DNA from: Breznakibacter xylanolyticus
Lineage (GTDB): Bacteria > Bacteroidota > Bacteroidia > Bacteroidales > Marinilabiliaceae
Direction of reading: 5' to 3'
Length of the DNA stretch: 64,000 bases
Assembly (NCBI RefSeq): GCF_003254275.1
Contig: NZ_QKZK01000013.1
Location: 887 to 64,886 of the forward strand
Part shown: positions 6,323 through 50,341 of the stretch, piece by piece
Numbering within the stretch: position 1 is the stretch's first letter
How the letters are laid out: each line of letters starts with the position of its first letter
Program-made: the position numbers and the translations under genes
Notes under the pieces: generated by a model
The model's input: the letters and a program-made list of their open reading frames with translations, nothing else
Told to the model about the DNA's origin: nothing
Database searches by the model: none

Positions 6323-6794
6323 TGTCTATTCAAGTATGTGGTTGGCGTGAACGTGAGGCTCTCATGTGGCAAAGCCGTTGGCTGGCTTTCTGTTTTTGTC
6401 GCTTTTGATTCCTTGGCACATTGCACTATGACGAGCGAGAGTGACGTGGTCATGATAAAAATGATGGCGGTTGATCTGATTCGTCCCATGGCGATTGGTA
6501 TTATGGTTGACATGAATTTAAGGACGAATGGCTCCGTTGTGCAAATGTTTTTTTAGGATGAATGGTAGCAACGTTGCAAAGGGCTTGAGTGAAGAAGTGC
6601 AAATGTGTCTGAGTAAGAAACATACTGACGAATCGACAACGTCGCTTTACCGAGCAACGAAAGTGGAAACGCAGGAGGGTTGCTAAGCATGAAAGAGCAA
6701 GAGTACAGGCGTGTCATTAAAAGGCTCCCTTGGGGGGATTTAGGGGGCTGCAATAAAAGTTTACCCTCCGGGATGGGCTCATAAAACTAAAAAA
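6323..6794. other. intergenic region with a G-rich repeat near its right end
   Basis: No convincing gene. Short open frames on both strands lack signals. The G-rich element at 6719-6750 is the only recognisable structure. Confidence 0.5.
6719..6750 (+). repeat. G-rich intergenic element, copy 1
   Basis: Core TCCCTTGGGGGGATTTAGGG followed by GGCT, ending 44 nt before the ATG at 6795. It is related in sequence and orientation to the elements at 13361-13392 (minus strand) and 54312-54343. Confidence 0.6.
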
Positions 6795-34063: not shown

Positions 34064-36907
34064 ATGATAAATATGACTCGAAAATTATTTCTTTGGATGT
34101 TGCCGTTGCTGGCTTTGGCAGCCTGTCAAAAGCAGGTTGAGAAGACCGAGACGGGAATGCTGGTGCGTTTGTCGGGCGACAACGCCAAAATGGTGAAGTT
34201 AGATGTGGTGAATCCGCACATCATACATGTGTCGGCCACGGCCGATGCGCAATTTTCTGATCGTAAGAGCCTGGTGGTTCCTGATACGCTCAAGAAAAGC
34301 GGCAATTGGGAGATGGAGCAGGCCAATGGTTTGGCAGTGCTCAAAACCGAATTTGTGCACGCGAGTGTGGATTTGAAAAGCGGTGAAGTGAAGTTCACTC
34401 GTCCCGATGGGACGCCCATTTTGATCGAGAAGCAGGGCGGCGGTAAGTCGTTTGTGCCATCGGCCACCGAAAAGGGCTTGTACGAGATTCAGCAGGTGTT
34501 TGAATCGTCGGACGATGAAGCTTTTTACGGGTTGGGGCAGCACCAGAGCGATGAGTTTAACTACAAGGGTCGCAACGAGGAGTTGTATCAATACAATACC
34601 AAAGTGTCGGTGCCTTTTGTGGTGTCGAACAAAAACTATGGTTTGTTGTGGGACAATTATTCTTTGACGCGCTTTGGTGACAAGCGTCCTTATGCCGACT
34701 TGGATCAGTTTAAACTCTATGGTGTGGACGGCAAAGAAGGTGGCCTGACGGCGACTTATCTGGTCGATTCGGATCCCAAGAACGTGTTTGTACAACGCAG
34801 CGAAAGCTCCATCGACTATGAGAACCTGACCACTGTGGCCAAGTTTCCCGAGAACTTCCCCTTTAACCATGCCACCATTACCTGGGAAGGTGAAATTGAA
34901 CCTTCCGAAAGTGGGATGTATCATTTTAAACTCTATTATGCCGGCTACACTAAAGTGTATGTCAACAACGAACTGGTGGTTCCCGAGCGTTGGCGCACCG
35001 CCTGGAATCCCAATACGTATAAATTCAAAGTGAACCTCGAAGCCGGCAAGCGGGTGCCCGTGAAGCTGGAGTGGCAGCCCGACGGCGGGGTGTCGTATGT
35101 GAGTCTTAAGGCACTCAGCCCTGTTGACCCGGCTCAGCAAAACCAACTGGCATTGTGGTCGGAAGCCGGCCGTCAAATGGATTATTATTTTATTGCCGGC
35201 GACAACATGGATGAAGTCATTAGCGGATATCGTCACATCACCGGCAAAGCACCCATCATGCCCAAGTGGGCCATGGGATTCTGGCAAAGCCGCGAGCGTT
35301 ACAAAACCCAGGAGGAGTTGCTACAGGTGGTGAATGAGTACCGTCGTCGCGGGATCCCCCTCGATAACATCGTGCAGGACTGGTCGTACTGGAAAGTGGA
35401 TGATTGGGGCAGTCATAAGTTTGACGAGACTCGTTTTCCCGATCCCAAAGCGATGATCGACAGCGTGCATGCCATGAATGCAAAAATTATGATTTCGGTG
35501 TGGCCTAAATTTTATCACACCACCGACAACTATAAAGCTTTTGACAACAATGGATGGATGTACCGTCGTGCCGTGGAGGACAGCATTCGTGACTGGATTG
35601 CACCGGGGTACATCGGTTCGTTTTACGATGCCTATAGCGAAGGCGCCCGCAAGTTGTTTTGGCAACAAATGAACGACGAGCTCTACAGCAAGGGCATTGA
35701 TGCCTGGTGGATGGATGCCTCGGAGCCTGACATCCTCTCGAATGCCAGCATGGAATACCGCAAAGCTTTGAGCACGCCCACTGCACTGGGGTCGTCTACC
35801 GAATATTTCAACACCTATGCTTTGATGAATGCCATGGCCATTTACGATGGTCAGCGTGCCGTGAATCCCAATACTCGTGTGTTCCTGCTTACCCGTTCGG
35901 GCTTTGCCGGTCTGCAACGTTATTCAACAGCCACCTGGAGTGGTGACATCGGAACCCGTTGGGAAGATATGAAAGCACAAATCTCTGCCGGTTTGAACTT
36001 TGCCATGTCGGGCATACCTTACTGGACAATGGATATTGGTGGTTTCTGTGTTGAGAAACGTTACGAAACGGCCAAGGAAGGGTCGGCTGATTTGGATGAG
36101 TGGCGCGAGCTCAATACCCGTTGGTATCAGTATGGTGCGTTTTGCCCGTTGTATCGTGCTCATGGTCAGTTTCCTTATCGTGAGATTTACAACCTGGCAC
36201 CCGAGCAGCATCCTGCTTACCAAAGCATGGTGTATTATACCAAGTTGCGTTACCGCCTGATGCCTTATATCTACACGCTGGCTGCCCGTACTTATTTTAA
36301 CGATTACACCATTATGCGTGCCATGGTGATGGACTTTGCTTCTGATAAGCAGGTGTTGAACATTGGCGATCAGTACATGTTTGGTCCTTCGTTGCTGGTG
36401 GCGCCTGTGTATGAGTATAAAGCCCGCACGCGCAATGTGTACCTGCCTAAAGGATGCGGTTGGTATGACTTCTACACCGGCGTGTTCTACGATGGTGGTC
36501 AAAATGTTCAGGCGGATGCTCCGCTCACTCAGATGCCGATGTTTGTGAAAGAGGGCTCCATTGTGCCCATGGGTGGCGACATTCAGTATGCCTCGCAACC
36601 CACCGATGAACCTGTGACACTGTATGTGTATACCGGTAAAGATGCTTCGTTTGATATTTACGAAGATGAAGATGTGAACTACAATTACGAGAAAGGTGCC
36701 TATGCGGTCATCCCCGTGTCGTACAACGAGGCCACCAAAACGCTCACCATCGGAGACCGTAAGGGTTCTTTCGAAGGCATGAAGCAAAATCGTCAGTTTC
36801 GCATCGTTTGGATGGATAAAGCCAATGCCATCAAAAAATCATCTGTTTCGAAAGTGGTCGATTACAGCGGGGCTGTGTTGACGCTTAAGAATGAGCAGCG
36901 CCCTTAA
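34064..36907 (+). CDS. GH31 alpha-xylosidase with inserted PA14 domain (lipoprotein)
   Basis: 947 residues. A lipoprotein signal (LLALAAC, lipidated Cys near 22) is followed by residues lacking the acidic surface-export signal, so a periplasmic face is likely. A PA14 domain is inserted before the barrel (about 235-370; motif SGMYHFKLYYAGYTKVYVNN). The GH31 barrel carries the nucleophile Asp551 in WWMDASEPD and the probable acid/base Asp628 in WSGDIGTRWE. GH31 plus PA14 is the architecture of xyloglucan alpha-xylosidases such as CjXyl31A and BoGH31A, which release xylose from xyloglucan oligosaccharides. First gene of the enzyme cluster, with its own terminator. Confidence 0.9.
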   Translation: MINMTRKLFLWMLPLLALAACQKQVEKTETGMLVRLSGDNAKMVKLDVVNPHIIHVSATADAQFSDRKSLVVPDTLKKSGNWEMEQANGLAVLKTEFVHASVDLKSGEVKFTRPDGTPILIEKQGGGKSFVPSATEKGLYEIQQVFESSDDEAFYGLGQHQSDEFNYKGRNEELYQYNTKVSVPFVVSNKNYGLLWDNYSLTRFGDKRPYADLDQFKLYGVDGKEGGLTATYLVDSDPKNVFVQRSESSIDYENLTTVAKFPENFPFNHATITWEGEIEPSESGMYHFKLYYAGYTKVYVNNELVVPERWRTAWNPNTYKFKVNLEAGKRVPVKLEWQPDGGVSYVSLKALSPVDPAQQNQLALWSEAGRQMDYYFIAGDNMDEVISGYRHITGKAPIMPKWAMGFWQSRERYKTQEELLQVVNEYRRRGIPLDNIVQDWSYWKVDDWGSHKFDETRFPDPKAMIDSVHAMNAKIMISVWPKFYHTTDNYKAFDNNGWMYRRAVEDSIRDWIAPGYIGSFYDAYSEGARKLFWQQMNDELYSKGIDAWWMDASEPDILSNASMEYRKALSTPTALGSSTEYFNTYALMNAMAIYDGQRAVNPNTRVFLLTRSGFAGLQRYSTATWSGDIGTRWEDMKAQISAGLNFAMSGIPYWTMDIGGFCVEKRYETAKEGSADLDEWRELNTRWYQYGAFCPLYRAHGQFPYREIYNLAPEQHPAYQSMVYYTKLRYRLMPYIYTLAARTYFNDYTIMRAMVMDFASDKQVLNIGDQYMFGPSLLVAPVYEYKARTRNVYLPKGCGWYDFYTGVFYDGGQNVQADAPLTQMPMFVKEGSIVPMGGDIQYASQPTDEPVTLYVYTGKDASFDIYEDEDVNYNYEKGAYAVIPVSYNEATKTLTIGDRKGSFEGMKQNRQFRIVWMDKANAIKKSSVSKVVDYSGAVLTLKNEQRP

Positions 36908-36958
36908 GGTGTTGGGATAGTTGATTTTTTAAAAGCTTTATTTCTATACATTTGAGAG

Positions 36959-36990
36959 AAGGCGCATGGCCAACGGCGTGCGCCTTTTTT
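36959..36990 (+). terminator. Rho-independent terminator after the first GH31 gene
   Basis: AAGGCGCA (36959-36966) pairs with TGCGCCTT (36979-36986), followed by TTTT. It excludes the earlier in-frame start of the next gene. Confidence 0.8.
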
Positions 36991-37022
36991 ATGAGGTTGT
37001 CCGTTGGATGCAATCATTTGTC

Positions 37023-39434
37023 ATGATGAGATTCAAATCTTTCCTTTTGGCATGGATGATGACCGCTGCTTTGTCGTCGATGGCTCAGGTAGTCCCCTTT
37101 GATACGCCCCGGTGTGGGTTCTCCAGCTGGATGCCCGCTCCGGTGTGGGAAGATGCCCTGCTGAGCGGCAACGGAACCATGGGCGCCATGGTATTTGGCA
37201 AGCCGCACGACGAAACCATCATTCTCAATCACGCCCAATGTTTTTTGCCCAATCGCATCCCCAAACAGGCACTTGATCAGGCTTCGCGCCTCGATGAGAT
37301 ACGCCAATTGCTTGCCGATGGCAAAAATCAGGAGGCTGCACGTATTCCTGTTGAGCAGAGCATGCTTGAGGGGTTTGGTGAACAGCACTGGATTGACCCG
37401 TTGGTGCCATTCGCGAACCTGAAGGTGTCGATGGCAGCGGGTAACATCTCTAACTATCGGCGGATGGTCGATTTTGCCACCGGCGAGGCCAAGGTCGAAT
37501 GGGAACAGAACGGGCAGTTGTTTCAGCGCTGCCTGTTTGTGTCGCGCCCCGACAGCGTGGTGGTGTTGCACATCCGTTCTACCGGAAAAATCAATGCTTC
37601 GCTTTCTCTGGCGCGTCATCAGGTCAACTGGGATCAGTGGAATTACATCAACAATGCCATCAAGAGCGTGGCTGCAGAAGCCGATGAAAAATACCTGAGT
37701 TATCGTACCGAATTTGTGCATCAATGGGAGGGCAACCCGCAAGGATTTGAAGGCGTTGCCCGGGTAAAGGCCGTGGGAGGCTCAGTTACTGTTGATGGGT
37801 CGCAAATGGTGATCGCCAATGCCGATGAGGTGTTGCTCACCATGGCCATTGAGCCCAATTATCACTACCATAAGTCGTTGCTGCCGGTGTTGAAAGAGCG
37901 TGTCGATCGCAAGTCATCTTCTTATCAGCAATTGCTGACCTCGCATGTGCAGGTGCACGGCGATTTGTTTTCGCGCGTGAAGCTCGACCTGGGAGGTGGC
38001 GCCGATGGTGCTTTGCAGTCTGAAGCGCTGGTGCTCAGGGCGCGCCAACAGGTGTCGCCGGCCATCATCGAAAAGCAGTTTGATGCGGCTCGTTACAACA
38101 TCCTTTCGTCGGTGGGCACCAACCCGCCCACGTTGCAAGGCATCTGGAGTGGTACCTGGACGCCTCCCTGGTCGTCGGGATTTACCCACGATGGCAATGT
38201 GGAAGTGGCCGTGTCGCACCTGCTTAGCAGCAACACGCCCGACCTGCTGAAGGCCTACATGGCTTATCACGAGCGCATGATGCCCCATTATCGCGACAAT
38301 GCCCGTAAACTTTACAATGCCCGGGGCATCTATGTTCCTGCGCACTCCAGTTCGCACGGATGGAACATCCACTTTAGCGATGTGTGGTGTCTCTCCTTTT
38401 GGACGGGCGGCGCCGGATGGACGGCCGGCATTCTCTACGATCATTATCTCTACACAGGCGACAAACAATATTTGGCTGGGCACATCTATCCCTTTATGAA
38501 GGAGAGTGCCTGGTTTTACGAAGACTTTCTGTTTAAGGGCAACGACGGCAAGTGGGCCTTTTCGCCCTCTTATTCACCCGAAAACAATCCCGCCAATGAT
38601 CCTTCGCAAGCGTGCATCAATGCCACCATGGATGTGATGATTGCCAAAGAGCTATTGCGCAATTGCATTGAAGCCGGCAAAGTGGTGGGGGAGAGCAAGG
38701 CACAACTAAAGAAGTGGAACGACATGCTGGCGGCCATGCCCAATTATCGTATTAATGATGAAGGTGCCCTGGCCGAGTGGCTGCCTGCCCACATGCAGGA
38801 CAATTATCACCACCGCCATGTGTCGCACCTTTACGCCTTGTACGAGCGCATCGACCCCGATTTCGTGGCCAGTCCCTCGTTGATGGAAGCCGCACGCGTG
38901 GCCGTGGAGAAGCGCATGGTTCACCGTCGGCGCGAGAATGGCGGCGAGATGGTATTTGGTCTGGCTCAGATGGGCATGGTGGCCGCCAATCTGGGCGATG
39001 CTCAAATTACCGGCGAAATCATCCAATGGATGTCGAAATATTATTGGGCACCATCGTTGGCCACCTATCACAATTCGGGTAACCTGTTCAATATGGACAT
39101 GAGCGGCGGCTTTCCGGCGGTGATTCTTCGTGCCCTGGCTTATTCCGAACCCGGTAAGGTGAAGCTATTGCCTGCTCTGCCCGCCGATTGGAAGCAGGGT
39201 GCCGTTGATGGCATGGCGCTGCGCGGACAGGTGGTGATGAATCGCTTGGCGTGGACGCCAGCCGGGCTCGAAGTGACCCTGACATCTCCCGTCGACCAAA
39301 CGGTGACCGTGGAACTGCCTCGTGCCATGACGGCATTCACCACTGACGCCAAAACCGTGCGCCGGCGTTCCGATCGTCTTCTGTCGCTGGGTTTGTTGGC
39401 CGGAAAAACCCTGAAAGTGGTGGTGAAGTATTGA
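37023..39434 (+). CDS. GH95-type glycosidase (alpha-L-fucosidase/galactosidase fold, divergent)
   Basis: 803 residues from ATG 37023; ATG 37026 is equally possible, and the terminator upstream rules out longer forms. A signal peptide (MRFKSFLLAWMMTAALSSMAQ) leads a GH65N-2-type N-terminal sandwich (about 30-290) and an (alpha/alpha)6 barrel. By eye, the general acid Glu520 (YSPEN) and Asp692 (NMDMSGG) of GH95 are kept. The usual NxN pair of characterised 1,2-alpha-L-fucosidases reads Asp390-Gly-Asn392 (THDGN). This suggests a different subgroup or specificity. In this context it may remove fucosyl or galactosyl side groups of hemicellulose. Confidence 0.8.
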   Translation: MMRFKSFLLAWMMTAALSSMAQVVPFDTPRCGFSSWMPAPVWEDALLSGNGTMGAMVFGKPHDETIILNHAQCFLPNRIPKQALDQASRLDEIRQLLADGKNQEAARIPVEQSMLEGFGEQHWIDPLVPFANLKVSMAAGNISNYRRMVDFATGEAKVEWEQNGQLFQRCLFVSRPDSVVVLHIRSTGKINASLSLARHQVNWDQWNYINNAIKSVAAEADEKYLSYRTEFVHQWEGNPQGFEGVARVKAVGGSVTVDGSQMVIANADEVLLTMAIEPNYHYHKSLLPVLKERVDRKSSSYQQLLTSHVQVHGDLFSRVKLDLGGGADGALQSEALVLRARQQVSPAIIEKQFDAARYNILSSVGTNPPTLQGIWSGTWTPPWSSGFTHDGNVEVAVSHLLSSNTPDLLKAYMAYHERMMPHYRDNARKLYNARGIYVPAHSSSHGWNIHFSDVWCLSFWTGGAGWTAGILYDHYLYTGDKQYLAGHIYPFMKESAWFYEDFLFKGNDGKWAFSPSYSPENNPANDPSQACINATMDVMIAKELLRNCIEAGKVVGESKAQLKKWNDMLAAMPNYRINDEGALAEWLPAHMQDNYHHRHVSHLYALYERIDPDFVASPSLMEAARVAVEKRMVHRRRENGGEMVFGLAQMGMVAANLGDAQITGEIIQWMSKYYWAPSLATYHNSGNLFNMDMSGGFPAVILRALAYSEPGKVKLLPALPADWKQGAVDGMALRGQVVMNRLAWTPAGLEVTLTSPVDQTVTVELPRAMTAFTTDAKTVRRRSDRLLSLGLLAGKTLKVVVKY

Positions 39435-39527
39435 ATGGATTGTGCGGATGTGTGAATCTTTCAAATAGCTCATTTGTAAACGCTGCACTTATTTTAAAAA
39501 TGAAACATGATACTGATATTATCCTTT

Positions 39528-39636
39528 GCTGGCGCAGATATGTGATCTGTGCCTTATTTGTTCAAATAAATTAATTTGAAGGCACGGATTGCAAATCCGC
39601 GCCAGCAGTGATCTGTGCCTTATCTGTTCAAATCAA
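39528..39636. repeat. REP-like inverted repeat with partial direct repeat
   Basis: Left arm 39528-39553 (GCTGGCGCAGAT...CTGTGCC) and right arm 39581-39606 (GGCACGGATTGCAAATCCGC then GCCAGC) are imperfectly complementary across an AT-rich 27-nt loop. After the right arm the left part recurs directly (GTGATCTGTGCCTTATCTGT at about 39608). It fills the gap between the GH95 and GH2 genes. Confidence 0.65.
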
Positions 39637-39679
39637 TAAATGACTTGGTAATTTGACTAATATCATAACACCATTAATT

Positions 39680-42547
39680 ATGACTTTACACAAACGAACC
39701 ACAAGCACCCTTATTCTGCTGTTTTGCATCGGGATGCTGATGACTGCTTCCGCTCGGGAGCGTTTGTTGATGGACTTTGGATGGAAGTTTGCCTTTGGCC
39801 ATCCATTCGATAAGTCCCGCGATTTTAATACAGGAACCAGTTATTTCTCCTACATGGCCAAGGCCGGTTATGGCGATGGTGCCGCAGCAGCCGGGTTCGA
39901 TGATCGCACCTGGCGCTCGCTCGACGTGCCCCACGACTGGGCGGTTGAAGCGCCTTTTGAGGGGCGCGCCAGTCACAGTCATGGCTACAAAGCGGTGGGA
40001 CCCGGTTTTCCCGAAACCAGCGTGGGGTGGTATCGCAAGACGTTTACCATGCCGGCGGCCGATAAGGGCAAACGCATCTTTTTGGAGTTTGATGGTGTGA
40101 GCCGCGATGCCAGGGTGTGGGTCAATGGTTTTTATTGTGGCAACGAGCCCAGTGGTTACAACAGCTTTTCGTTCGATGTGAGTGAATATCTCAATTATGG
40201 CGGCAGCAACGTCATTGCCGTGCGTGCCGATGTCACCACCGAAGAGGGCTGGTACTACGAGGGTGCCGGCATTTATCGCCATGTGTGGCTGACCAAAACC
40301 GACCCGCTGCACGTGCCTCAGTACGGCACTTTTGTCACTTCTCAGGTCGATGGCAATAATGCAAAGGTGACCGCACGGGTGAAGGTGATGAACAAACACC
40401 TCTCCGCCGTTTCCTTTGATGTGCATCATCGGGTGGTGGATGCCCTGGGTGCCACTGTTGCCGAAGCTTTGGAACGTGGCAAGTCGCTCAAGTCGTTTGG
40501 GAAAGATGAGTTTGTTACTGAGTTTGCAGTGCCCAATGCCCGTCTGTGGTCGCTCAACGACCCACATCTGTATCAATTGCACACCACCCTTACCCGCGAT
40601 GGCAAGGTGGTGGATGAATATCATACCAATTTCGGCATCCGCACCATTCGTTTCGATGCCAATAAAGGATTTTTCCTCAATGGCGAGCATGTGAAACTGA
40701 AGGGCACCAACAACCATCAGGATCATGCCGGCGTGGGGGTGGCCATGCCCGATGGGTTGCAGGAGTATCGCATTCGTCAGCTCAAGGTCATGGGCAGCAA
40801 TGCTTATCGCTGTTCGCACAACCCGCCCACGCCCGAGCTGCTCGATGTGTGCGACCGTTTGGGCATGCTGGTCATCGACGAGAACCGCCTGATGGGCATC
40901 ACCGATCACGACCTGCATCAGTGCGAACGACTGATTGTGCGCGACCGCAACCACCCCAGTATCATTGCCTGGAGCATTGGCAACGAAGAGTGGGCCATCG
41001 AAACCTACGAGCGCGGTGCCGATATTGTGCGGGTGATGCAGGCCTTTGTCAAAACCATCGACTCGACCCGTTATGTCAATGCCGCCGTGAGCGGTGCTTG
41101 GGAAACCGGCATCGGCACTGCCATTGATGTGATGGGGTTCAATTACCTGCGTCATGGCAATACCGATGTGCATCATGCCAACCACCCCTGGCAACCATCC
41201 ATGGGCACCGAAGAAGGTTCGACCAATACCACTCGTGGCATCTACTTTGATGACCCCGAAAAACAATATCTCTCGGCCTACGACCGACCCACCAACGGGT
41301 TTGTGAGCATTCAGCAAGGATGGAAACATTATGCCGAGCGCGATTACCTGGCCGGCATGTTCATCTGGACCGGGTTTGACTATCGTGGCGAGTCGACGCC
41401 CTACAGTTTCCCCTCGGTGGGTTCCTATTTTGGGATGCTCGATCAGTGCGGATTCCCCAAGGACAACGTTTATTATCTCCGTTCGTGGTGGGGCAACGAG
41501 CCGGTGCTGCACATCTTGCCACACTGGAACTGGCCGGGACGCGAAGGTCAGGAAATAGATGTGTGGGTGTATAGCAACATGGATGAGGTAGAACTCATCG
41601 TCAATAAAAAAAGCCTCGGACGTCAAACCATGCAGCGCAACGGCCATCTGTCGTGGAAGGTGCCTTATGCTCCCGGTACCGTTGAGGCCATTGGCTACAA
41701 AAACGGCAAGCGTTTTATGAACAAACTGGTGAGCACCACCGGAACCCCGGCTGCCGTGGCTCTGGTGCCCGACCGCGCCAGCGTGAAGGCCGATCGTGAA
41801 GATATTTCGGTGGTGACCGTGCAGGTGGTCGATAAAAAGGGCGCTGTGGTGCCCGATGCCAACCACGAGGTGATGTTCGAGATTACCGGTCCCGGTCGAA
41901 TCATTGGCGTGGGCAACGGCGATCCCACTTCGCACGAGGCCGACCGTTTTGTCGAGTCCGTCAAGGTGTTGTCTACTTCCGGCTGGAAGGAATATGCCGC
42001 TCAGTCGCTCGATGTGAATGCCGCCGTGCAGCCTGCTTTTGATGATGCCACATGGCACGATGCTTTCCCCGGTGGCGGGTTGGCTCCCGGCAGTGTGCCC
42101 CAAACCACCGTGTATCGAGGCACAATACAGGTTGCAGAAACCGAACTCAAAGGACAAATCAACTGGATGTTTCGCAGCATTGGCCGCCACCAAAAGGTGT
42201 ATGTCAATGGTCGTCTGCTGGCTGATGGTTTGAGCGACGATGTGGCACGTCACGAGTTTGCCCTGAGCGCTGATTGGCTCAAGCCAGGGAACAACGTGGT
42301 GGCCATTGTGGCCGAACCCTTTGTGAAGAAGCATGCCTGGGACAATGTGAATGTGCATCCCGGCGACGTGCAGGTGGTGCTGCCCCCTGCTCAGTGGCAA
42401 CGCAAAACCTTTAACGGACTGGCGCAAATCATCATTCAAAGCACCCGGCAACCCGGCGATATTGTGCTGACAGCAACATCGAAAGGGCTTAAAAGTGGTT
42501 CGCTGGTGATAAAGTCTCTTCCGGCTAAGGTTCGCCCCAGTCTGTAA
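39680..42547 (+). CDS. GH2-family glycosidase, probable beta-galactosidase
   Basis: 955 residues from ATG 39680, directly before a signal peptide (TLILLFCIGMLMTASA). Domain order is sugar-binding sandwich (about 30-210, WYRKTFTMP), immunoglobulin-like domain (about 220-320) and TIM barrel (about 325-610), then DUF4982-like and further beta-sandwich domains to the end. Acid/base Glu436 is in WSIGNEEWA and nucleophile Glu571 in FDYRGEST. Such long exported GH2 proteins with DUF4982 are usually beta-galactosidases in Bacteroidota loci. Beta-glucuronidase or mannosidase activity cannot be excluded by eye. No other gene shares its unit. Confidence 0.88.
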   Translation: MTLHKRTTSTLILLFCIGMLMTASARERLLMDFGWKFAFGHPFDKSRDFNTGTSYFSYMAKAGYGDGAAAAGFDDRTWRSLDVPHDWAVEAPFEGRASHSHGYKAVGPGFPETSVGWYRKTFTMPAADKGKRIFLEFDGVSRDARVWVNGFYCGNEPSGYNSFSFDVSEYLNYGGSNVIAVRADVTTEEGWYYEGAGIYRHVWLTKTDPLHVPQYGTFVTSQVDGNNAKVTARVKVMNKHLSAVSFDVHHRVVDALGATVAEALERGKSLKSFGKDEFVTEFAVPNARLWSLNDPHLYQLHTTLTRDGKVVDEYHTNFGIRTIRFDANKGFFLNGEHVKLKGTNNHQDHAGVGVAMPDGLQEYRIRQLKVMGSNAYRCSHNPPTPELLDVCDRLGMLVIDENRLMGITDHDLHQCERLIVRDRNHPSIIAWSIGNEEWAIETYERGADIVRVMQAFVKTIDSTRYVNAAVSGAWETGIGTAIDVMGFNYLRHGNTDVHHANHPWQPSMGTEEGSTNTTRGIYFDDPEKQYLSAYDRPTNGFVSIQQGWKHYAERDYLAGMFIWTGFDYRGESTPYSFPSVGSYFGMLDQCGFPKDNVYYLRSWWGNEPVLHILPHWNWPGREGQEIDVWVYSNMDEVELIVNKKSLGRQTMQRNGHLSWKVPYAPGTVEAIGYKNGKRFMNKLVSTTGTPAAVALVPDRASVKADREDISVVTVQVVDKKGAVVPDANHEVMFEITGPGRIIGVGNGDPTSHEADRFVESVKVLSTSGWKEYAAQSLDVNAAVQPAFDDATWHDAFPGGGLAPGSVPQTTVYRGTIQVAETELKGQINWMFRSIGRHQKVYVNGRLLADGLSDDVARHEFALSADWLKPGNNVVAIVAEPFVKKHAWDNVNVHPGDVQVVLPPAQWQRKTFNGLAQIIIQSTRQPGDIVLTATSKGLKSGSLVIKSLPAKVRPSL

Positions 42548-42601
42548 CCCCTTCCGTTCTTTTGTGCGGTGCTTTATATGAAGAGCTGACGGGGAGATGG
42601 T

Positions 42602-42663
42602 AAATTCACCGCGGTCGATTTTAAATTCACCGCGGTGAATTTAAAATTCACCGCGGTGAATTG
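42602..42663. promoter_or_regulatory. three 20-bp palindromes at exact 21-bp period
   Basis: Units start at 42602, 42623 and 42644. The middle unit is the perfect palindrome AAATTCACCGCGGTGAATTT. The first has two changed bases in its right arm (CGATTT) and the third differs in its last base. The period equals two DNA turns, placing all three on one face. They lie between the GH2 stop and a terminator hairpin. Confidence 0.75.
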
Positions 42664-42666
42664 GGT

Positions 42667-42707
42667 AAAAGCCCGCCGCCTTTTGAGGAAAAGCTCTCGG
42701 GCTTTTT
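42667..42707 (+). terminator. terminator-like hairpin
   Basis: AAAAGCCCG (42667-42675) pairs with CGGGCTTTTT (42698-42707), long loop, T-run. Probably terminates the GH2 transcript after the palindrome array. Confidence 0.65.
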
Positions 42708-43149
42708 GTAAACGAAGAGAATAAACGCAGAGGTAGTTCATTTCTCATGCTTTGCATTTTGTCAAATCAGATCCAATGTCGTTAAGTGAGTCCGATGTGT
42801 CGAAGAGATAAGAAGATGACTAGACAAAAGACAGGCAGATTAGACCGAAGAGACGAACAGTACGGATCTAAACATCTGTTTACTTCTCATCATCGGTTTA
42901 TTTATCTGGTATCTTTTTATCTTGATTAAATGACATTGAAATCCGATAACTCAAATAGTCGTTTCACGGTTGTACATCAATCCTTGATTCGAATGATTGA
43001 TGAAATTCATAGTCTTGTGTCTTGATACTACTATTTAACTCTTTTGAGTTATCTGCTTTCTTATATAAACGCAAAATGTTACAGATTAACTTAGCGCCTT
43101 TGCGCCTCAGCGTTTAATTCTACTCATGTCTTAATACTTTCATAAACAG
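42708..43149. other. intergenic leader of the GH3 gene
   Basis: No gene. Near 43090-43115 the sequence TTAGCGCCTTTGCGCCTCAG resembles the TTTGCG-rich intergenic repeats common in Bacteroidota. An ACGCAGAGG piece of the complementary type lies near 42725. A promoter is expected here but I find no clean consensus. Confidence 0.4.
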
Positions 43150-45348
43150 ATGAAAACAAACAATCTACTTCTCGTGGCCGGATGTGCGGCCATCATGGCG
43201 GCTTGCCAGGTGCAGCCCCAAACGGATGCGCCCGGGGTGGTGGCCATCTCCAATCAATACGATGCCAAAATCGACAGCATTGTGGGCGTGCTCACGCTCG
43301 ACGAAAAAGTGAAGCTGTTGCATGGCAGTGGCATGTTTTGGTCGGGCGGTATTGAGCGCCTGGGCATTCCCGAACTGCAATATGCCGATGGCCCGTTGGG
43401 CATTCGCGAAGAGATTGAGCGAGACTCGTGGAACCCCATCGGGTGGACCAACGACTCGGCCACCTTCTTTCCCGCCGGCACAGCACTGGGGGCGACCTGG
43501 AACGTGAAATTGGCGCATCAATACGGGCAGGCCATTGCTGCCGAAGCCCGCGCCCGCAAAAAGGACATCCTGCTGGCGCCGGCCATCAACATTATGCGGA
43601 CTCCTTTGTGTGGTCGCAACTACGAGTATTTTAGCGAAGATCCTTATTTGATTGCACAAATGGCCACACCTTACGTCATTGGGGTGCAGGAGCAAAATGT
43701 GGCCGCCTGCGTGAAGCATTATGCCATCAACAACCAGGAAACCAACCGCGGATCTATTGACGTTCAGGCCAGCGAACGCGCCATTCGCGAGATTTACCTG
43801 CCGGCCTTTAAAGCCACTGTGCAGCAGGGACAGGCGTTTTCGGTGATGGGGGCATACAACCGTTTCAGGGGAGAGTTCCTTTGCGAAAACGACTACATGC
43901 TCAACCAGGTGCTGCGTAACGAATGGGGATTTAAAGGCATCGTGATATCCGACTGGGCCGCCGTGCACAACACCGTCAAGGCTGCCAAAAATGGTTTGGA
44001 CATCGAGATGGGGACGGTAGCTCCCTTCGATTCCTTTTTCATGGCTCAGCCCTTGGTGGATGCGGTGAATGCCGGCCAGGTGGACGTGAAATTCATCGAC
44101 GAAAAAGTGCGTCGCATCCTTCGGGTGATGTTCAATTTGCAAACGACATCTAAAAATCGCCCTGCAGGTGCCATTAACACACCCGGGCATTCCAAAATTG
44201 TGTACGATGTGGCGGCCGAAGCCATTGTGTTGATGAAAAACCAGGTCAACCTCTTGCCGGTAGATGCATCCACCATTAAAAGCATGGCTGTGATTGGCGA
44301 CAATGCCGCGCGCGTGCATGCACAGGGCGGTTTTGGTGCCGGCGTGAAAGCCCGTTATGAGGTGTCGCCGCTGCAAGGTTTGGTCAATCGCATTAGCGAC
44401 CGCGTGGAGTTGCGTTACGCCCGTGGTTACGAAGATACTTACCTCAAGGGCGCCAACGATGGTCACGGCTATGGTCGCGACATCGACTACACGCCCAATC
44501 CCAAGCTCATCGCCGAAGCGGTCGAGAAGGCCAAAAACAGCGATGTGGCGGTGATTTTTGCCGGGTCGAACCGAAGTGTGGAATCTGAGTCGGTCGATCG
44601 CAAGGACATCCGTTTGCCTTTTGCGCAAATGGATTTGATTAAGGCCGTGATGGCCGTCAACCCACGCACCATTGTGGTGCTTATTGGCGGTGCGGCCTAC
44701 GAGTTGGGCGATTTGGATGCCGTGGCACCCACCATTCTGTGGGCGTGGTTCAATGGTTCGGAGGCCGGTAATGCGCTGGCCGATGTCATTATTGGCACTG
44801 TGAATCCGTCGGGTAAGCTGCCCTTTACCTTCCCTGCCAAACTGGCCGATATGGGTGTGCATGCTCTCAATGCTTTCCCCGGCGACGACGTGAAGGTGGA
44901 ATACCTCGAGGATATTTTGGTGGGATATCGCTGGTTCGACACCAAGCAGGTTGATCCCCAGTTTTGTTTCGGGCATGGTCTTTCATATACCACTTTTGAG
45001 TATGGCGATGTGGTTGTGAACCAATCGTCGGCCAAAAGCAGTGATGTGGTGCAAGTGGCTCTGACGCTTACCAACACCGGTTCACGTGCAGGTGCCGAGG
45101 TGGTGCAGCTCTACGCCGGCATCGAAACCTCAAAAGTGGAACGTGCTGCTAAGGAGCTTAAGGCTTTTGAGAAAGTATTTCTTCAACCCGGCGAAAGTAA
45201 GCGTGTTGAGCTCTCTCTGCCTGTTGCTGATTTGGCTTACTACGATGAAGCTTCGCGTGCCTGGTTGGTGGAGCCTGGTAATTATACATTCTCGGTTGGC
45301 AGTTCCTCTCGCGATATTCGTAAAAATGTGGCGTTGGTGGTGAAGTAG
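43150..45348 (+). CDS. GH3 beta-glucosidase (lipoprotein)
   Basis: 732 residues. A lipoprotein signal peptide (VAGCAAIMAAC) is not followed by an acidic export signal, so a periplasmic location is likely. The GH3 N-terminal barrel has KHYAINNQETNRG and the nucleophile Asp268 in GIVISDWAAVH. The alpha/beta second domain (about 380-590) includes FAGSNRSVESESVDRKD, where an acid/base is expected. A C-terminal Fn3-like domain contains FGHGLSYTTFEYGD. It cleaves beta-linked glucose (or xylose) from oligosaccharide ends, matching the last step of xyloglucan backbone breakdown. Its own terminator follows. Confidence 0.92.
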   Translation: MKTNNLLLVAGCAAIMAACQVQPQTDAPGVVAISNQYDAKIDSIVGVLTLDEKVKLLHGSGMFWSGGIERLGIPELQYADGPLGIREEIERDSWNPIGWTNDSATFFPAGTALGATWNVKLAHQYGQAIAAEARARKKDILLAPAINIMRTPLCGRNYEYFSEDPYLIAQMATPYVIGVQEQNVAACVKHYAINNQETNRGSIDVQASERAIREIYLPAFKATVQQGQAFSVMGAYNRFRGEFLCENDYMLNQVLRNEWGFKGIVISDWAAVHNTVKAAKNGLDIEMGTVAPFDSFFMAQPLVDAVNAGQVDVKFIDEKVRRILRVMFNLQTTSKNRPAGAINTPGHSKIVYDVAAEAIVLMKNQVNLLPVDASTIKSMAVIGDNAARVHAQGGFGAGVKARYEVSPLQGLVNRISDRVELRYARGYEDTYLKGANDGHGYGRDIDYTPNPKLIAEAVEKAKNSDVAVIFAGSNRSVESESVDRKDIRLPFAQMDLIKAVMAVNPRTIVVLIGGAAYELGDLDAVAPTILWAWFNGSEAGNALADVIIGTVNPSGKLPFTFPAKLADMGVHALNAFPGDDVKVEYLEDILVGYRWFDTKQVDPQFCFGHGLSYTTFEYGDVVVNQSSAKSSDVVQVALTLTNTGSRAGAEVVQLYAGIETSKVERAAKELKAFEKVFLQPGESKRVELSLPVADLAYYDEASRAWLVEPGNYTFSVGSSSRDIRKNVALVVK

Positions 45349-45420
45349 TTCTTTCCACTCAGCATGAAAGGATGTCTCATTACTTCCTTTATAATGGTAA
45401 AATGTTTCGATGTTTGATAG

Positions 45421-45450
45421 AACCTCCGGAGGTAAATCCGGAGGTTTTTT
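45421..45450 (+). terminator. Rho-independent terminator after GH3
   Basis: AACCTCCGGA (45421-45430) pairs with TCCGGAGGTT (45437-45446), followed by T-run. Confidence 0.9.
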
Positions 45451-45500
45451 ATTGGGGTTGGTTTTGTTATCTGTTTGAATGCCAAGGTGGCGTGTGTGAT

Positions 45501-45575
45501 GTGTAAATACATTTTACACCCTTTTTAGCGACAAAAAGGACTGCTGAGTGTAAGTGTGACACACTATTTTTACAC
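45501..45575. promoter_or_regulatory. cluster of inverted repeats before the second GH31 gene
   Basis: GTGTAAA-N5-TTTACAC (45501-45519) is a perfect 7-bp inverted repeat. AGTGTG-A-CACACT (45553-45565) and a wider GTGTAA...TTTACAC pair (45548-45575) follow. The ATG is at 45633. Arms resemble the palindrome at 12026-12038. Confidence 0.5.
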
Positions 45576-45632
45576 CTGTTAATTCTTTTTTACAACACCC
45601 GGTGTTTTTTGCGCGGGTTCTGATATTTAGAT

Positions 45633-48044
45633 ATGATGAAGAAGTCGAATGTTAAAAAATGTCTCATGCGGACAGCCCTGGGCGGTCTCTTTGGCATGAT
45701 GTGTTTGCCGGGTGCTCTGAACGCTCAGATTCAACAGATGGGGCTCCAGAATGAGCCGGTTGACATCAGCCGTGATTTTTACAATTTCACCAATACCTAT
45801 TATCTGGCCGACAGTTTGGCCGGTTTCGACCCGTCAACGGGCAAGGGGGCTTTGGTGTATCGTCGTCATGAGTATTCCACTCGCATGGCATTTAATAACA
45901 TGCTGGGAGTGTTGCGTCCCGTGCTTCCCAACGAGTTCCCCACGGGCGAATATGCCGTGTCGCCCTCATTGCCCATCGAGATTGATTTTGTGTCCGAGAA
46001 GACGGTTCGCATCAAGGCGGCATCGGGTTTCAATGCCTCAGAGCGTGAAGCCTCGTTGATGTTGGTTGATGGCAAAGCCCCTTCGCTACGCAGCGCCTGG
46101 AAATATACCCAAACTGCCATAGGCCATGAGTATAGCAATGCCCATGGCAAGGTGGTCATCAACACTTATCCGTTTCACGTGGCCATTTACGATGGCAAAG
46201 GCAAACTGTTGACCTCCACCGTGCATTTTGATGACGTGAAGGAATCGACTTACACGCCTGTATTGCCCTTCTCGTATGTTCGCCGTGCGTCGGATTACTC
46301 GCGCAGCTTCAATGCCTGTTTCACTCTCTCGCCCGACGAAAAGATTTTTGGTTGTGGCGAATCTTTTACCCGTCTCGATAAACGCGGGCAAAAGGTGGTG
46401 CTCTGGACCGATGATGCCAACGGCATCGAAAACGAAACCATGTACAAGCCCATTCCTTTTTATATGAGCAGTAAGGGATACGGCGTGTTCATGCACACCT
46501 CGTCGCCCATTACCTGCGATTTTGGCAAATATTACACCGAGGCTTCACAGTTGATGATTGGTGATGATCAGCTCGATATGTTCATCTTCTTAGGTTCTCC
46601 CAAAGATATTCTCGATCAGTACACCAACCTTACCGGCAAGGCATCTATGCCTCCGCTCTGGTCGTTTGGCTTGTGGATGAGCCGCATCACTTATTTCTCC
46701 GAGGCCGATGGGCGCAATGTGGCCGACAAACTGCGTGAGAATAAAATTCCGTCGGATGTCATCCATTTCGACACCGGCTGGTTTGAGACCGATTGGCGTT
46801 GCGACTACCAGTTTTCATCATCACGTTTCAAGGATGCCCGTAAGATGATGGAGGACTTGAAAAAGCAGGGTCTTCATGTATGCTTGTGGCAGTTGCCTTA
46901 TTTTGTACCCAAAAATACGTTGTTTGATGAGATTGTTTCCAAAGGTCTGTACGTGAAAGATGCCCGTGGCGGCATCCCTTACGAAGATGCGGTGCTCGAT
47001 TTCTCCAATCCGGCAATGGTTGAGTGGTATCAGCAAAAAATTGCCGGACTGCTCGAGATGGGCGTGAGTGCCATTAAGGTCGACTTTGGCGAGGCTGCCC
47101 CGGCCAATGGCATTTACCACAATGGTCGCACAGGTTTTTACGAGCACAATCTTTTCCCCTTGCGATACAATAAGGCGGTGGCCGAAATCACCAAAAAAAC
47201 CAACAACGAAAACATCATGTGGGCGCGTAGTGCCTGGGCCGGCAGTCAACGTTACCCTCTGCACTGGGGTGGCGATGCGGCCAATACCGATAATGCCATG
47301 CAGGCTCAGTTACGGGGTGGTCTGTCTCTCGGGTTGAGTGGCTTTTCCTTCTGGAGCCACGACATTGGCGGCTTTGTGCTGAAGACGCCTGAAGAACTCT
47401 ATCTCCGTTGGATGCCTTTTGGGATGCTCACGTCGCACAGCCGTTGCCATGGCATGCCGCCCAAAGAGCCTTGGGAATATGGCAAGGCTTTTACCGATAA
47501 ATTCCGCAAGTCGGTGGAATTGAAATACAAGCTCATGCCTTATATCTATGCCCAGGCCAAGGAAAGCAGTGAAAAGGGTTTGCCCATGATGCGTGCCCTT
47601 TTTGTGGAATTCCCCGACGATCCCGGCGCATGGCTCATCGATAACGAGTACCTTTTTGGCAGCGACATATTGGTGGCACCTTTGTTCGACCAGGGATCTA
47701 CCTCTCGCGATGTTTATCTGCCCAAAGGCAAATGGATCGATTACCAAACCGGGAAAGTGTACGATGGCGGTTGGCATCATATCGCAGCCGGAGAGATTCC
47801 GGTGGTAATGCTGGTGCGTGACGGGGCTGTGATTCCTCACATCAAGCTGGCGCAAAATACCCGCGACATGGACTGGACCAAATTGCAGCTCATGGTTTAT
47901 GCCGCTTCTGCAAAACCTTCGGATGCGTTGGTTTGTCTGCCCATGGACAATGTCCTCAAACGTGTGTCGGTTGCTCCCGATTTCAAATCGGTGTCCAACA
48001 ATCCGTTTGGCGGGTCTGTTGAGTTTTCGGTCGTGAAAAAGTAA
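45633..48044 (+). CDS. GH31 alpha-xylosidase, YicI type
   Basis: 803 residues. The N-terminal signal region is long and basic (MMKKSNVKKC) with hydrophobic LGGLFGMMCLPGALNAQ, so exported. The barrel has HFDTGWFETDWRCDY and the nucleophile Asp484 in KVDFGEAAP. Acid/base Asp548 is in WGGDAANTDN, as in the E. coli alpha-xylosidase YicI, and C-terminal sandwiches follow. The family also contains alpha-glucosidases, but KVDFGE with GGDA fits the YicI subgroup. Together with the PA14-type GH31 it gives two distinct alpha-xylosidases in one cluster. A strong terminator follows. Confidence 0.88.
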   Translation: MMKKSNVKKCLMRTALGGLFGMMCLPGALNAQIQQMGLQNEPVDISRDFYNFTNTYYLADSLAGFDPSTGKGALVYRRHEYSTRMAFNNMLGVLRPVLPNEFPTGEYAVSPSLPIEIDFVSEKTVRIKAASGFNASEREASLMLVDGKAPSLRSAWKYTQTAIGHEYSNAHGKVVINTYPFHVAIYDGKGKLLTSTVHFDDVKESTYTPVLPFSYVRRASDYSRSFNACFTLSPDEKIFGCGESFTRLDKRGQKVVLWTDDANGIENETMYKPIPFYMSSKGYGVFMHTSSPITCDFGKYYTEASQLMIGDDQLDMFIFLGSPKDILDQYTNLTGKASMPPLWSFGLWMSRITYFSEADGRNVADKLRENKIPSDVIHFDTGWFETDWRCDYQFSSSRFKDARKMMEDLKKQGLHVCLWQLPYFVPKNTLFDEIVSKGLYVKDARGGIPYEDAVLDFSNPAMVEWYQQKIAGLLEMGVSAIKVDFGEAAPANGIYHNGRTGFYEHNLFPLRYNKAVAEITKKTNNENIMWARSAWAGSQRYPLHWGGDAANTDNAMQAQLRGGLSLGLSGFSFWSHDIGGFVLKTPEELYLRWMPFGMLTSHSRCHGMPPKEPWEYGKAFTDKFRKSVELKYKLMPYIYAQAKESSEKGLPMMRALFVEFPDDPGAWLIDNEYLFGSDILVAPLFDQGSTSRDVYLPKGKWIDYQTGKVYDGGWHHIAAGEIPVVMLVRDGAVIPHIKLAQNTRDMDWTKLQLMVYAASAKPSDALVCLPMDNVLKRVSVAPDFKSVSNNPFGGSVEFSVVKK

Positions 48045-48127
48045 GGTTGTTTTCATTTTTTTTGATAGCGCTTTGAATTAATATTCAGTTTTTTCAAGAG
48101 TTTTTTTGTAGGGTTTGTTTTTGTTTG

Positions 48128-48166
48128 ACCGGGCACAATGATTAGGGTTGTGCCCGGTTTTTTTTC
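48128..48166 (+). terminator. Rho-independent terminator after the second GH31 gene
   Basis: ACCGGGCACAA (48128-48138) pairs with TTGTGCCCGGT (48148-48158), loop 9 nt, followed by eight T. Confidence 0.92.
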
Positions 48167-48187
48167 ACCTTTAATGTTTTATGAATC

Positions 48188-50341
48188 ATGCAATGGATAA
48201 AGGCTTCATTTGTGATGTTGGGTTATTGTTTGGTGTTGACAGTGTCGGCTCAGCATGTTTATCCCTTTCAAAATCGCGATTTACCTGTTGAAGAACGTAT
48301 CAACAACTTGTTGTCGTTGATGACGCTCGACGAAAAGGTGTCGGCTCTGAGTACCAACCCTTCGGTGCCTCGATTGGGGGTGAAGGGTTGCGGACACATC
48401 GAGGGACTGCACGGCGTGGCCATGGGTGGCCCGGCAGGATGGGGGCGTAAGGAAGCGCCAGTGACCACCACTCAGTTCCCTCAGGCTTATGGATTGGGGG
48501 CAACCTGGAATCCGGCCTTGATTGAGAAGATTGCGGCCTTGCAGGCTTACGAGGCGCGTTACTTGTTTCAAAGTCCCAAGTATCGTCAGGGTGCCTTGGT
48601 GGTGCGGGCTCCCAATGCCGATCTTGGGCGTGATCCTCGTTGGGGGCGCACCGAGGAGTGCTATGGCGAAGACCCGTTCCTGACCGGAACCTTGGCTGCC
48701 GCTTTCAGTAAGGGATTGCAGGGCAACGACCCGCGATACTGGATCACGGCTTCGTTACTCAAGCATTTTTTGGCCAATAGTAACGAGGATCGCCGCGATA
48801 GCTCTTCGTCGGATTTTGATGAGCGGTTGTGGCGCGAATATTATGCCATGCCCTTTTATAAGGCCATCACCCATGGCGGTGCCAACTGCTATATGGCTGC
48901 TTATAACGCCATCAATGGCACGCCGGCCACGGTGCATCCCATGTTGCGCGACATCACCATGCGCGAGTGGGGCGTCAATGGCATCATTTGCACTGATGGC
49001 GGGGCTTATCGCATGTTGATAAACTCGCACCATGCTTTTAGTGACCTCAATAGTGCCGCTGCTGCTTGTGTGAAAGCAGGCATCAATCAATTTCTCGACG
49101 ATTACCGCGAGGGAGTGTATGGCGCTTTGGCCAATGGCCTGTTGTTTGTCGATGACATCGATGCGGTGTTGCGTGGCAATTATCGGGTCATGATCCGTCT
49201 GGGGCTGCTTGATGATCCCCGCATGGTTCCCTATGCATCCATTGGGGTGAAGGACTCCATTGATCCATGGACTTTGCCTGCGCATCGTGAGTTGGCTCGT
49301 GAGGTAACCCGTCAGTCGGTGGTGCTGCTTAAGAACGATAAAGGACTGCTGCCTCTTCAGCAGGGTAAAGTGAAATCCGTGGCCATGATTGGCTTGCTGG
49401 CCGATACGGTGATGCTCGACTGGTACAGCGGGACGCCCCCTTACACCGTGACCCCTTATGCGGGCATGGCCTCCCGATTACCGGGGAAAGTGGCACTGGC
49501 TCGTGATAACGATTACAACCGGGCGGTTGATTTGGCTCGGGCATCCGAGGTGGCCATTGTTTGTGTTGGCAACAACCCCACCGGCAATGGCGGCTGGAAA
49601 GAGTGTCCGTTGCCCAGTGACGGTAAAGAAGCTGTCGACCGCAAGTCGCTCACCCTGGAGCAGGAGCAGCTCATCCGACAAGTGTTGGAGGTCAATCCCA
49701 ATACTGTGGTGGTGCTCATCAGCAGTTTTCCTTATGCCATCAACTGGACGGTGCAAAACGTCCCTGCCATAGTACATCTCACGCACAGCAGTCAGGAGTT
49801 GGGCAATGCCCTGGCCGATGTGCTCTGGGGCGACGTCTCTCCAGGGGGCAAACTCACACAAACCTGGCCGGCTTCCATTGACCATTTGCCCGAAATGATG
49901 GATTATGACATTCGCAAGGGACGCACTTATCAGTACGTTCGTCATAAACCCTTGTTCCCGTTTGGCTATGGGTTGAGTTATACCAAGTTTAAATGGTCGG
50001 ACATGGCATTTTCGCAGCGTCTAATTGCTGCTGGTGATTCTGTTGAAGTGTCGCTGCGGCTTACCAATACCGGCTCCATGAGCGGTGATGAGGTGGTGCA
50101 GCTGTATGCTACCTTTCCCGACTCGAAGGTCGATCGCCCCGTGAAGAAGTTGGTGGGGTTTGCCCGCGTGAGCCTGGCGCAGGGTGAATCGCGCCAGGTG
50201 CGCATCCCTCTTTCAGCCTTTGAGTTGATGGTTTGGGATGTGTCCCGACAAGCTTTCGTTCTTGAGTCCGGTAAGATATCCCTGACTCTTGGTGCTTCGT
50301 CCGATGATGTGAAGCTGACCCGATGGTTGACTGCCCGATAA
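48188..50341 (+). CDS. GH3 beta-glycosidase (beta-glucosidase/beta-xylosidase)
   Basis: 717 residues. A signal peptide (ASFVMLGYCLVLTVSAQ) makes it exported and not lipidated. The barrel contains GVKGCGHIEGLHG, RDPRWGRTEECYGEDPFL and KHFLANSNEDRR. The nucleophile is Asp270 in GIICTDGGAYRM. Second domain and Fn3-like C-terminus (FGYGLSYTKFKW, NTGSMSGDEVVQLY) are complete. It belongs to a different GH3 subgroup from the gene at 43150; the early RDPRWGRTEE block is frequent in beta-xylosidase/glucosidase enzymes. Exact sugar unknown. It is terminated by a strong hairpin. Confidence 0.9.
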   Translation: MQWIKASFVMLGYCLVLTVSAQHVYPFQNRDLPVEERINNLLSLMTLDEKVSALSTNPSVPRLGVKGCGHIEGLHGVAMGGPAGWGRKEAPVTTTQFPQAYGLGATWNPALIEKIAALQAYEARYLFQSPKYRQGALVVRAPNADLGRDPRWGRTEECYGEDPFLTGTLAAAFSKGLQGNDPRYWITASLLKHFLANSNEDRRDSSSSDFDERLWREYYAMPFYKAITHGGANCYMAAYNAINGTPATVHPMLRDITMREWGVNGIICTDGGAYRMLINSHHAFSDLNSAAAACVKAGINQFLDDYREGVYGALANGLLFVDDIDAVLRGNYRVMIRLGLLDDPRMVPYASIGVKDSIDPWTLPAHRELAREVTRQSVVLLKNDKGLLPLQQGKVKSVAMIGLLADTVMLDWYSGTPPYTVTPYAGMASRLPGKVALARDNDYNRAVDLARASEVAIVCVGNNPTGNGGWKECPLPSDGKEAVDRKSLTLEQEQLIRQVLEVNPNTVVVLISSFPYAINWTVQNVPAIVHLTHSSQELGNALADVLWGDVSPGGKLTQTWPASIDHLPEMMDYDIRKGRTYQYVRHKPLFPFGYGLSYTKFKWSDMAFSQRLIAAGDSVEVSLRLTNTGSMSGDEVVQLYATFPDSKVDRPVKKLVGFARVSLAQGESRQVRIPLSAFELMVWDVSRQAFVLESGKISLTLGASSDDVKLTRWLTAR

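Follow-up and report, generated by a model that had tools for sequence, protein, structure and literature searches.

Results

Anatomy of the array between the GH2 and GH3 genes

The stretch of Breznakibacter xylanolyticus DNA analysed here (the window, 64,000 nucleotides) carries, between two genes encoding glycoside hydrolases of families 2 and 3, an array of three palindromic modules that is followed by two modules of the form AAAAG-N8-CTTTT and by two other dispersed repeats. The features of this region are:

39653-42547, + strand: upstream gene, glycoside hydrolase family 2 (GH2)
42602-42621, + strand: palindrome module 1, AAATTCACCGCGGTCGATTT; imperfect, two mismatches in the right arm (GTCGAT right arm)
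42623-42642, + strand: palindrome module 2, AAATTCACCGCGGTGAATTT; perfect, centre of the nested hairpin
42644-42663, + strand: palindrome module 3, AAATTCACCGCGGTGAATTG; a single mismatch, at the terminal base
42603-42662, + strand: nested hairpin of 27 bp, with interruptions, formed by the array in its entirety (-38.6 kcal/mol, z -9.1)
42667-42684, + strand: AAAAG-N8-CTTTT module, dispersed in the genome
42689-42706, + strand: another AAAAG-N8-CTTTT module at a step of 22 bp; the two together form a terminator-like hairpin
42770-42940, + strand: neighbouring purine-rich dispersed repeat of about 170 bp, in at least 27 further places of the genome
43027-43125, + strand: neighbouring dispersed repeat of about 99 bp, in at least 20 further places of the genome, ending shortly before the GH3 start
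43150-45348, + strand: downstream gene, glycoside hydrolase family 3 (GH3)

The place counts of the two neighbouring repeats are lower bounds, as 40 of 261 candidates were scored. Three near-perfect palindromes with a 21-bp period, starting at 42602, 42623 and 42644, had been reported from inspection of the sequence alone; positions and period are as claimed, and the description as near-perfect suits the second and third copies (no and one mismatch, respectively), although less so the first (two mismatches). Tandem Repeats Finder assigned the array (42602-42663) a score of 99 with 92% matches, and the core CACCGCGGTG, with up to one mismatch allowed, was found six times in the window, three of them inside the array, against 2.2 expected, a number reached by none of 100 shuffles. 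Both results make a chance origin of the array unlikely. The array starts 54 bp past the GH2 stop codon and, together with the adjoining hairpin, ends 439 bp short of the GH3 start, in a gap of which more than half is made of dispersed repeats from three families. A run of glycoside hydrolase genes (34064-50341; GH31, GH95, GH2, GH3 and GH31 according to Pfam, with the ORF at 48188 lying outside the search) surrounds it.

Copies in the same genome

Sites resembling ATTCACCGCGGTGAAT were found at four loci of the B. xylanolyticus genome (contigs C8, C13, C30 and C43), each adjoining AAAAG-N8-CTTTT-like blocks. When pairs of CACCGCGGTG and ACCGCGGT were searched with 1-31 bases allowed between them, all six pairs detected, at four unrelated loci of this genome, were spaced at exactly 21 bp, and none was detected in the other 70 genomes of the family. 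The array in contig C43 (locus L003) comprises ACCGCGGT, ACCGCGGT, ACCCGGGT, ACGGCCGT and ACGGCCGT at steps of 21, 21, 22 and 21 bp and is then followed by an AAAAG-N8-CTTTT block, different palindromes thus sharing one register within a single array. The array and its adjoining hairpin recur as a unit, with 85% identity over 106 bp in C30, where the copy comes after a cluster of four tRNA genes, and 88% over 88 bp in C43. AAAAG blocks of this genome follow each other at 22 bp, rarely at 21. A non-palindromic module, AAATTTGC..GCTTTTT, was seen in the same register in this genome (C1:204361-204421) as well as in Limimorpha and Culturomica bins (L017 about 1540-1563, L075, L128, L143 and L096). 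The sequence-only reading had named palindromes at random sites with variable spacing as the outcome that would speak against it. Half of this came about: the palindrome does occur at unrelated loci, but the spacing is not variable and stays at 21-22 bp. The spacing of two helical turns is accordingly real, and it is rigid in this genome, in the genomes carrying AAAAG blocks and in the arrays that were read.

Register and distribution in Bacteroidota

Similar blocks with other sequences recur across Bacteroidota. Among 61 genomes scanned for pairs of AAAAG-N8-CTTTT modules with 0-30 bases between them, three yielded 33 forward pairs with gaps of 4 (28 pairs), 3 (2) or 25 bases (3, one module being skipped), three of the 33 stemming from a contig that one assembly contains in duplicate; the reversed control gave none in all 61. 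At the level of the order, the exact two-block pattern occurred in 8 of 393 genomes, five of them with a single match, and since the reversed control matched in 3 of 393, some of the eight may be due to chance. A search of 84,980 species genomes, run without a reversed control, for three such units at 22 bp returned 79 stretches in about 44 assemblies (counted as accession prefixes); exact AAAAG/CTTTT arms and 22-bp steps were required, so other arrays are missed. Bacteroidota names are carried by 77 of the 79 stretches, the other two being Anaerolineales and Treponema metagenome bins. Steps at these outside loci, which were chosen by the 22-bp pattern and chained only at 20-24 and 43-44 bp, were 22 (259), 21 (35), 23 (4) and 43-44 bp (6). 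At the adjoining positions in register, on which the search pattern placed no demand, A-rich and T-rich arms persist in 154 units. The module cores vary freely between lineages and also within one array, and in direct arrays the flanks are conserved and the spacers change. With regard to the 4-nt spacer between AAAAG modules, 208 distinct pairs spaced by four bases were compared, in which ACCC/GGGT (21) and ACTC/GAGT (19) were the commonest, across several lineages.

Of 295 genomes searched for TTCACCGCGGTGAA, G199, which belongs to another family, has 11 copies, that of B. xylanolyticus (G000) 4, and three more a single copy each; the reversed control gave one match in each of 3 of the 295, B. 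xylanolyticus included. Eight G199 arrays built around this sequence were read with a tolerant module pattern. Each of the eight has three modules, every one of the 16 steps measures exactly 22 bp, and the linkers resemble CTAGTTAA.

Folding and symmetry

Folded as RNA, the window array yields 13 + 14 pairs (-38.6 kcal/mol, z -9.1), and as single-stranded DNA z -8.6. The folding anticipated by the sequence-only reading is therefore strong, although it takes the form of one nested hairpin instead of several competing ones. The terminator proposed to follow the array corresponds to a terminator-like hairpin at 42667-42706, the final four T of which lie within the stem with one further T beyond; nevertheless, this hairpin is unremarkable for its composition (z -1.27), and a simple terminator scan of 42400-43300 listed none. 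Six other arrays of the genome, folded without shuffles, also give long hairpins, and its AAAAG arrays contain an inverted module pair in seven of eight cases, the exception being the window's own pair. At the outside loci only direct module pairs were present in 51 of 79 and any inverted pair in 18 of 79, and purely direct arrays can form short hairpins only. In G199, modules that lack a palindrome of their own tend to match the reverse complement of another module of the array, with a mean of 1.27 mismatches (11 modules) versus 2.54 after shuffling (P 0.0002; 1 of 5000 shuffles as extreme), which is expected of a folded strand or a cruciform, unlike independent dimer sites.

In 27 co-directional arrays no bias between sense and antisense strands was observed in folding energy (P 0.71), nor any asymmetry in T-tracts (P 0.31), so nothing points to selection on the transcript as such, and RNA-specific selection was rejected on these two values. 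Dyad symmetry of the cores exceeded that of shuffles (total z 3.5, one core per cluster, 46 clusters, spacer lengths being confined to 3-4 by the pattern), and did so most strongly for the central base pair of positions; when clustering was looser (7 clusters), z was 1.8. As these two bases would lie in the loop of a one-module RNA hairpin, an excess of symmetry there leaves room for recognition of duplex DNA. Rfam 15 gave no match at the gathering score in 15 sources, and a known RNA family was consequently rejected; at E values up to 5 sub-threshold matches alone appeared, from microRNA models over the hairpin and, within GH2, from a single lncRNA model.

Position relative to genes

Gene context was assigned to the arrays with a simple, home-made ORF finder that scores dipeptides, on which all location statistics rest. 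Of 89 arrays, 27 at the edge of a contig and 1 within an ORF were excluded, and the duplicate locus L127 was dropped; of the others, 27 lie between convergent, 27 between co-directional and 7 between divergent genes, the copy in C30 being counted as divergent even though it comes after four tRNA genes. The corresponding numbers for array-free gaps of at least 80 bp at the same loci are 13, 82 and 37. Convergent and divergent junctions must be about equally frequent along a genome, and the ratio of 27:7 is therefore in itself unlikely (P 0.0008), bearing in mind that the counts are not fully independent because several arrays come from the same assembly. A cruder first ORF finder had given 20 convergent, 20 co-directional and 6 divergent, a further 23 arrays being placed at edges and 11 within ORFs. 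Between co-directional genes, 22 of 27 arrays are closer to the upstream 3' end (P 0.0015); in G199, six of the seven arrays in such gaps are so placed, and one further array lies between divergent genes. No bias towards start codons appeared in the orientation and distance counts, and the promoter location expected of operators was not found, as the arrays favour 3' ends.

Turnover and possible mobile origin

Two Anaerophaga genomes differ by whole modules: one orthologous gap holds eight modules in one genome and six in the other (manual count), and a second such gap contains an array in just one of the two. Judged by coinciding match positions, G028 and G012, both of the family studied here, seem to be the two records of Anaerophaga thermohalophila, which would probably place B. 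xylanolyticus in the family of Anaerophaga. Beside or near Anaerophaga arrays a MITE-like end, AGTGTYTGTCSATAAAGTRCC, was noticed (L145 about 2200-2240, L109 about 6284-6328 and L163 about 1820-1846), and over 30 of the 69 matches listed for genome G028 are this short MITE-like element. The Y1_Tnp family was detected in 27 of 30 genomes, 8 of the 10 with a match to the array pattern and 19 of the 20 without (counts of presence only); given its occurrence nearly everywhere in these 30 genomes, a REP transposase was tentatively set aside as the cause of the arrays. A plasmid or phage origin was rejected, because none of the 72,556 plasmid and 50,697 phage records searched had DNA similar to window positions 42560-42760. 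One stretch of a viral contig (L172) contains a three-module array; two other viral matches to the palindrome pattern are not array-like, the first (L173) lying in GC-rich, putatively coding DNA and the second (L174) being a 37-bp tandem repeat.

Discussion

Bidirectional intrinsic terminators lie between convergent genes and are composed of an A-tract, a GC-rich stem and a T-tract. The inverted module pairs of C5, C6 and C30 fold in the same manner (without shuffles), and C33 contains an exact inverted pair by sequence; however, modules in register, whether direct or palindromic, are not required for a single terminator. Among mosaic repeats, the neisserial dRS3 element is described in PMC3898611 as ATTCCC(N8)GGGAAT, found with RS elements in intergenic mosaics and reported as a target of prophage integration. 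The likeness extends to a short block with fixed inverted ends, a variable N8 core and clustering in intergenic mosaics with other repeats, and the GH2-GH3 gap is such a mosaic. dRS3 nevertheless has other end sequences and a 20-bp block, whereas the present arrays, from Bacteroidota, repeat AAAAG-N8-CTTTT plus four bases at a fixed 22 bp with hairpin-forming neighbours; their units are AAAAG-N8-CTTTT or ATTCACCGCGGTGAAT, and not ATTCCC(N8)GGGAAT.

REP/BIME sequences are presented in PMC3733652 as small extragenic palindromes hypothesised to act in termination and mRNA stability, with unpaired GTAG/CGTC tags and mostly as head-head dimers. The present arrays share with them small extragenic palindromes, often as inverted pairs, but unlike head-head dimers they keep a register of 21/22 bp. 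By description, and not by unit sequence, the nearest published relative found within the phylum is BrickBuilt, a minisatellite/MITE of Porphyromonas gingivalis with 23-nt repeats (22-nt repeats are mentioned in strain W83) that was reported from P. gingivalis and P. gulae (PMC4596501). Both are intergenic in Bacteroidota, with units in tandem that each span roughly two turns of the helix, and both are predicted to form long stem-loops and differ in unit number between strains (PMC4596501). BrickBuilt is described with a leader, a tail and IS5-like terminal repeats (PMC4596501); the unit of the present arrays is not of 23 nt, since AAAAG blocks in B. xylanolyticus step by 22 or 21 bp and the palindromes by 21. 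The arrays resemble neisserial mosaic repeats, REPs and terminators, but without the dRS3 unit or the BrickBuilt period. No description of a 21/22-bp modular array architecture was found in the open-access literature that was searched.

The array is probably a gene-end hairpin repeat instead of a private switch of GH2 and GH3. Palindromes two helical turns apart do resemble operators, and a regulator of the local polysaccharide locus had been suggested on that ground; nonetheless, we regard such an operator as highly improbable, given that the same palindromes lie at three other, unrelated loci of the genome, that arrays lacking any bias to start codons favour the 3' ends of unrelated genes and in one case follow tRNA genes, that cores change within one array, and that the 439 bp to the GH3 start contain two other dispersed repeats in a gap largely composed of them. 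The main rival is a dimeric or polymerising DNA-binding protein, nucleoid-associated or iteron-/centromere-like, that would read dyads every two turns, the arrays being its loading sites at gene ends. A register of 21-22 bp whatever the core or linker, the excess of dyad symmetry up to the two central bases, the multiplication of TTCACCGCGGTGAA in two families and the direct arrays with conserved flanks and changing spacers are all in line with it. It is unlikely, however, in view of cores that differ between lineages and within arrays with no common sequence beyond the AAAAG/CTTTT or TTCA/TGAA arms, of G199 modules complemented by a neighbour and not internally, and of a bias to 3' ends and not to promoters.

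Unit-number change and presence or absence between congeners, the purely direct arrays at most outside loci, the dispersed repeats adjoining the array and the sporadic distribution within the order would equally suit functionless minisatellite or MITE debris, in which slippage and gene conversion would add palindromic units, and these would persist at the least harmful places, between convergent genes and after stop codons. Slippage alone leaves unexplained both the same 18+4 architecture with AAAAG/CTTTT arms in unrelated lineages and the eight G199 arrays of exactly three modules at 22 bp with complementary pairs, and we consider debris rather unlikely. A modular repeat serving as a hairpin cassette at 3' ends, or at any rate tolerated in that role, best fits the anatomy of the array, its fixed register, its dispersal, the 3'-end bias, the foldability and the whole-module differences between two congeneric genomes. 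To the more definite statement that the window array belongs to a modular intergenic repeat which acts as such a cassette, in analogy to neisserial dRS3 mosaics and BrickBuilt, we assign a probability of about 0.5.

The repeat is composite and dispersed, with 21/22-bp palindromic blocks beside AAAAG-N8-CTTTT blocks, and tends to sit just downstream of genes. We hypothesize that transcripts of the upstream gene would include it at their 3' ends, where the RNA may fold into the long nested hairpin and then the terminator-like one, and the folded array could end transcription and/or shield the 3' end from exonucleases. Modules would multiply and be lost as whole units by slippage or recombination, and the composite may spread among intergenic sites in the manner of neisserial mosaic repeats; such turnover and spread would explain why the same register is found with different cores in different lineages. 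More tentatively, and with the odds against it, the arrays might form a single class throughout Bacteroidota, made of 22-bp dyad modules arrayed where genes end, in which a phylum-specific factor, either a protein or the 3'-end processing machinery, measures two helical turns and tolerates almost any palindromic core, the core being lineage-specific.

The present case is a warning that a palindrome next to polysaccharide-utilisation genes is not necessarily an operator, and it raises the question of what measures 22 bp. If our reading is true, a kind of repeat described in Porphyromonas would belong to an intergenic architecture that is widespread in Bacteroidota, lineage-specific and concentrated at transcript ends.
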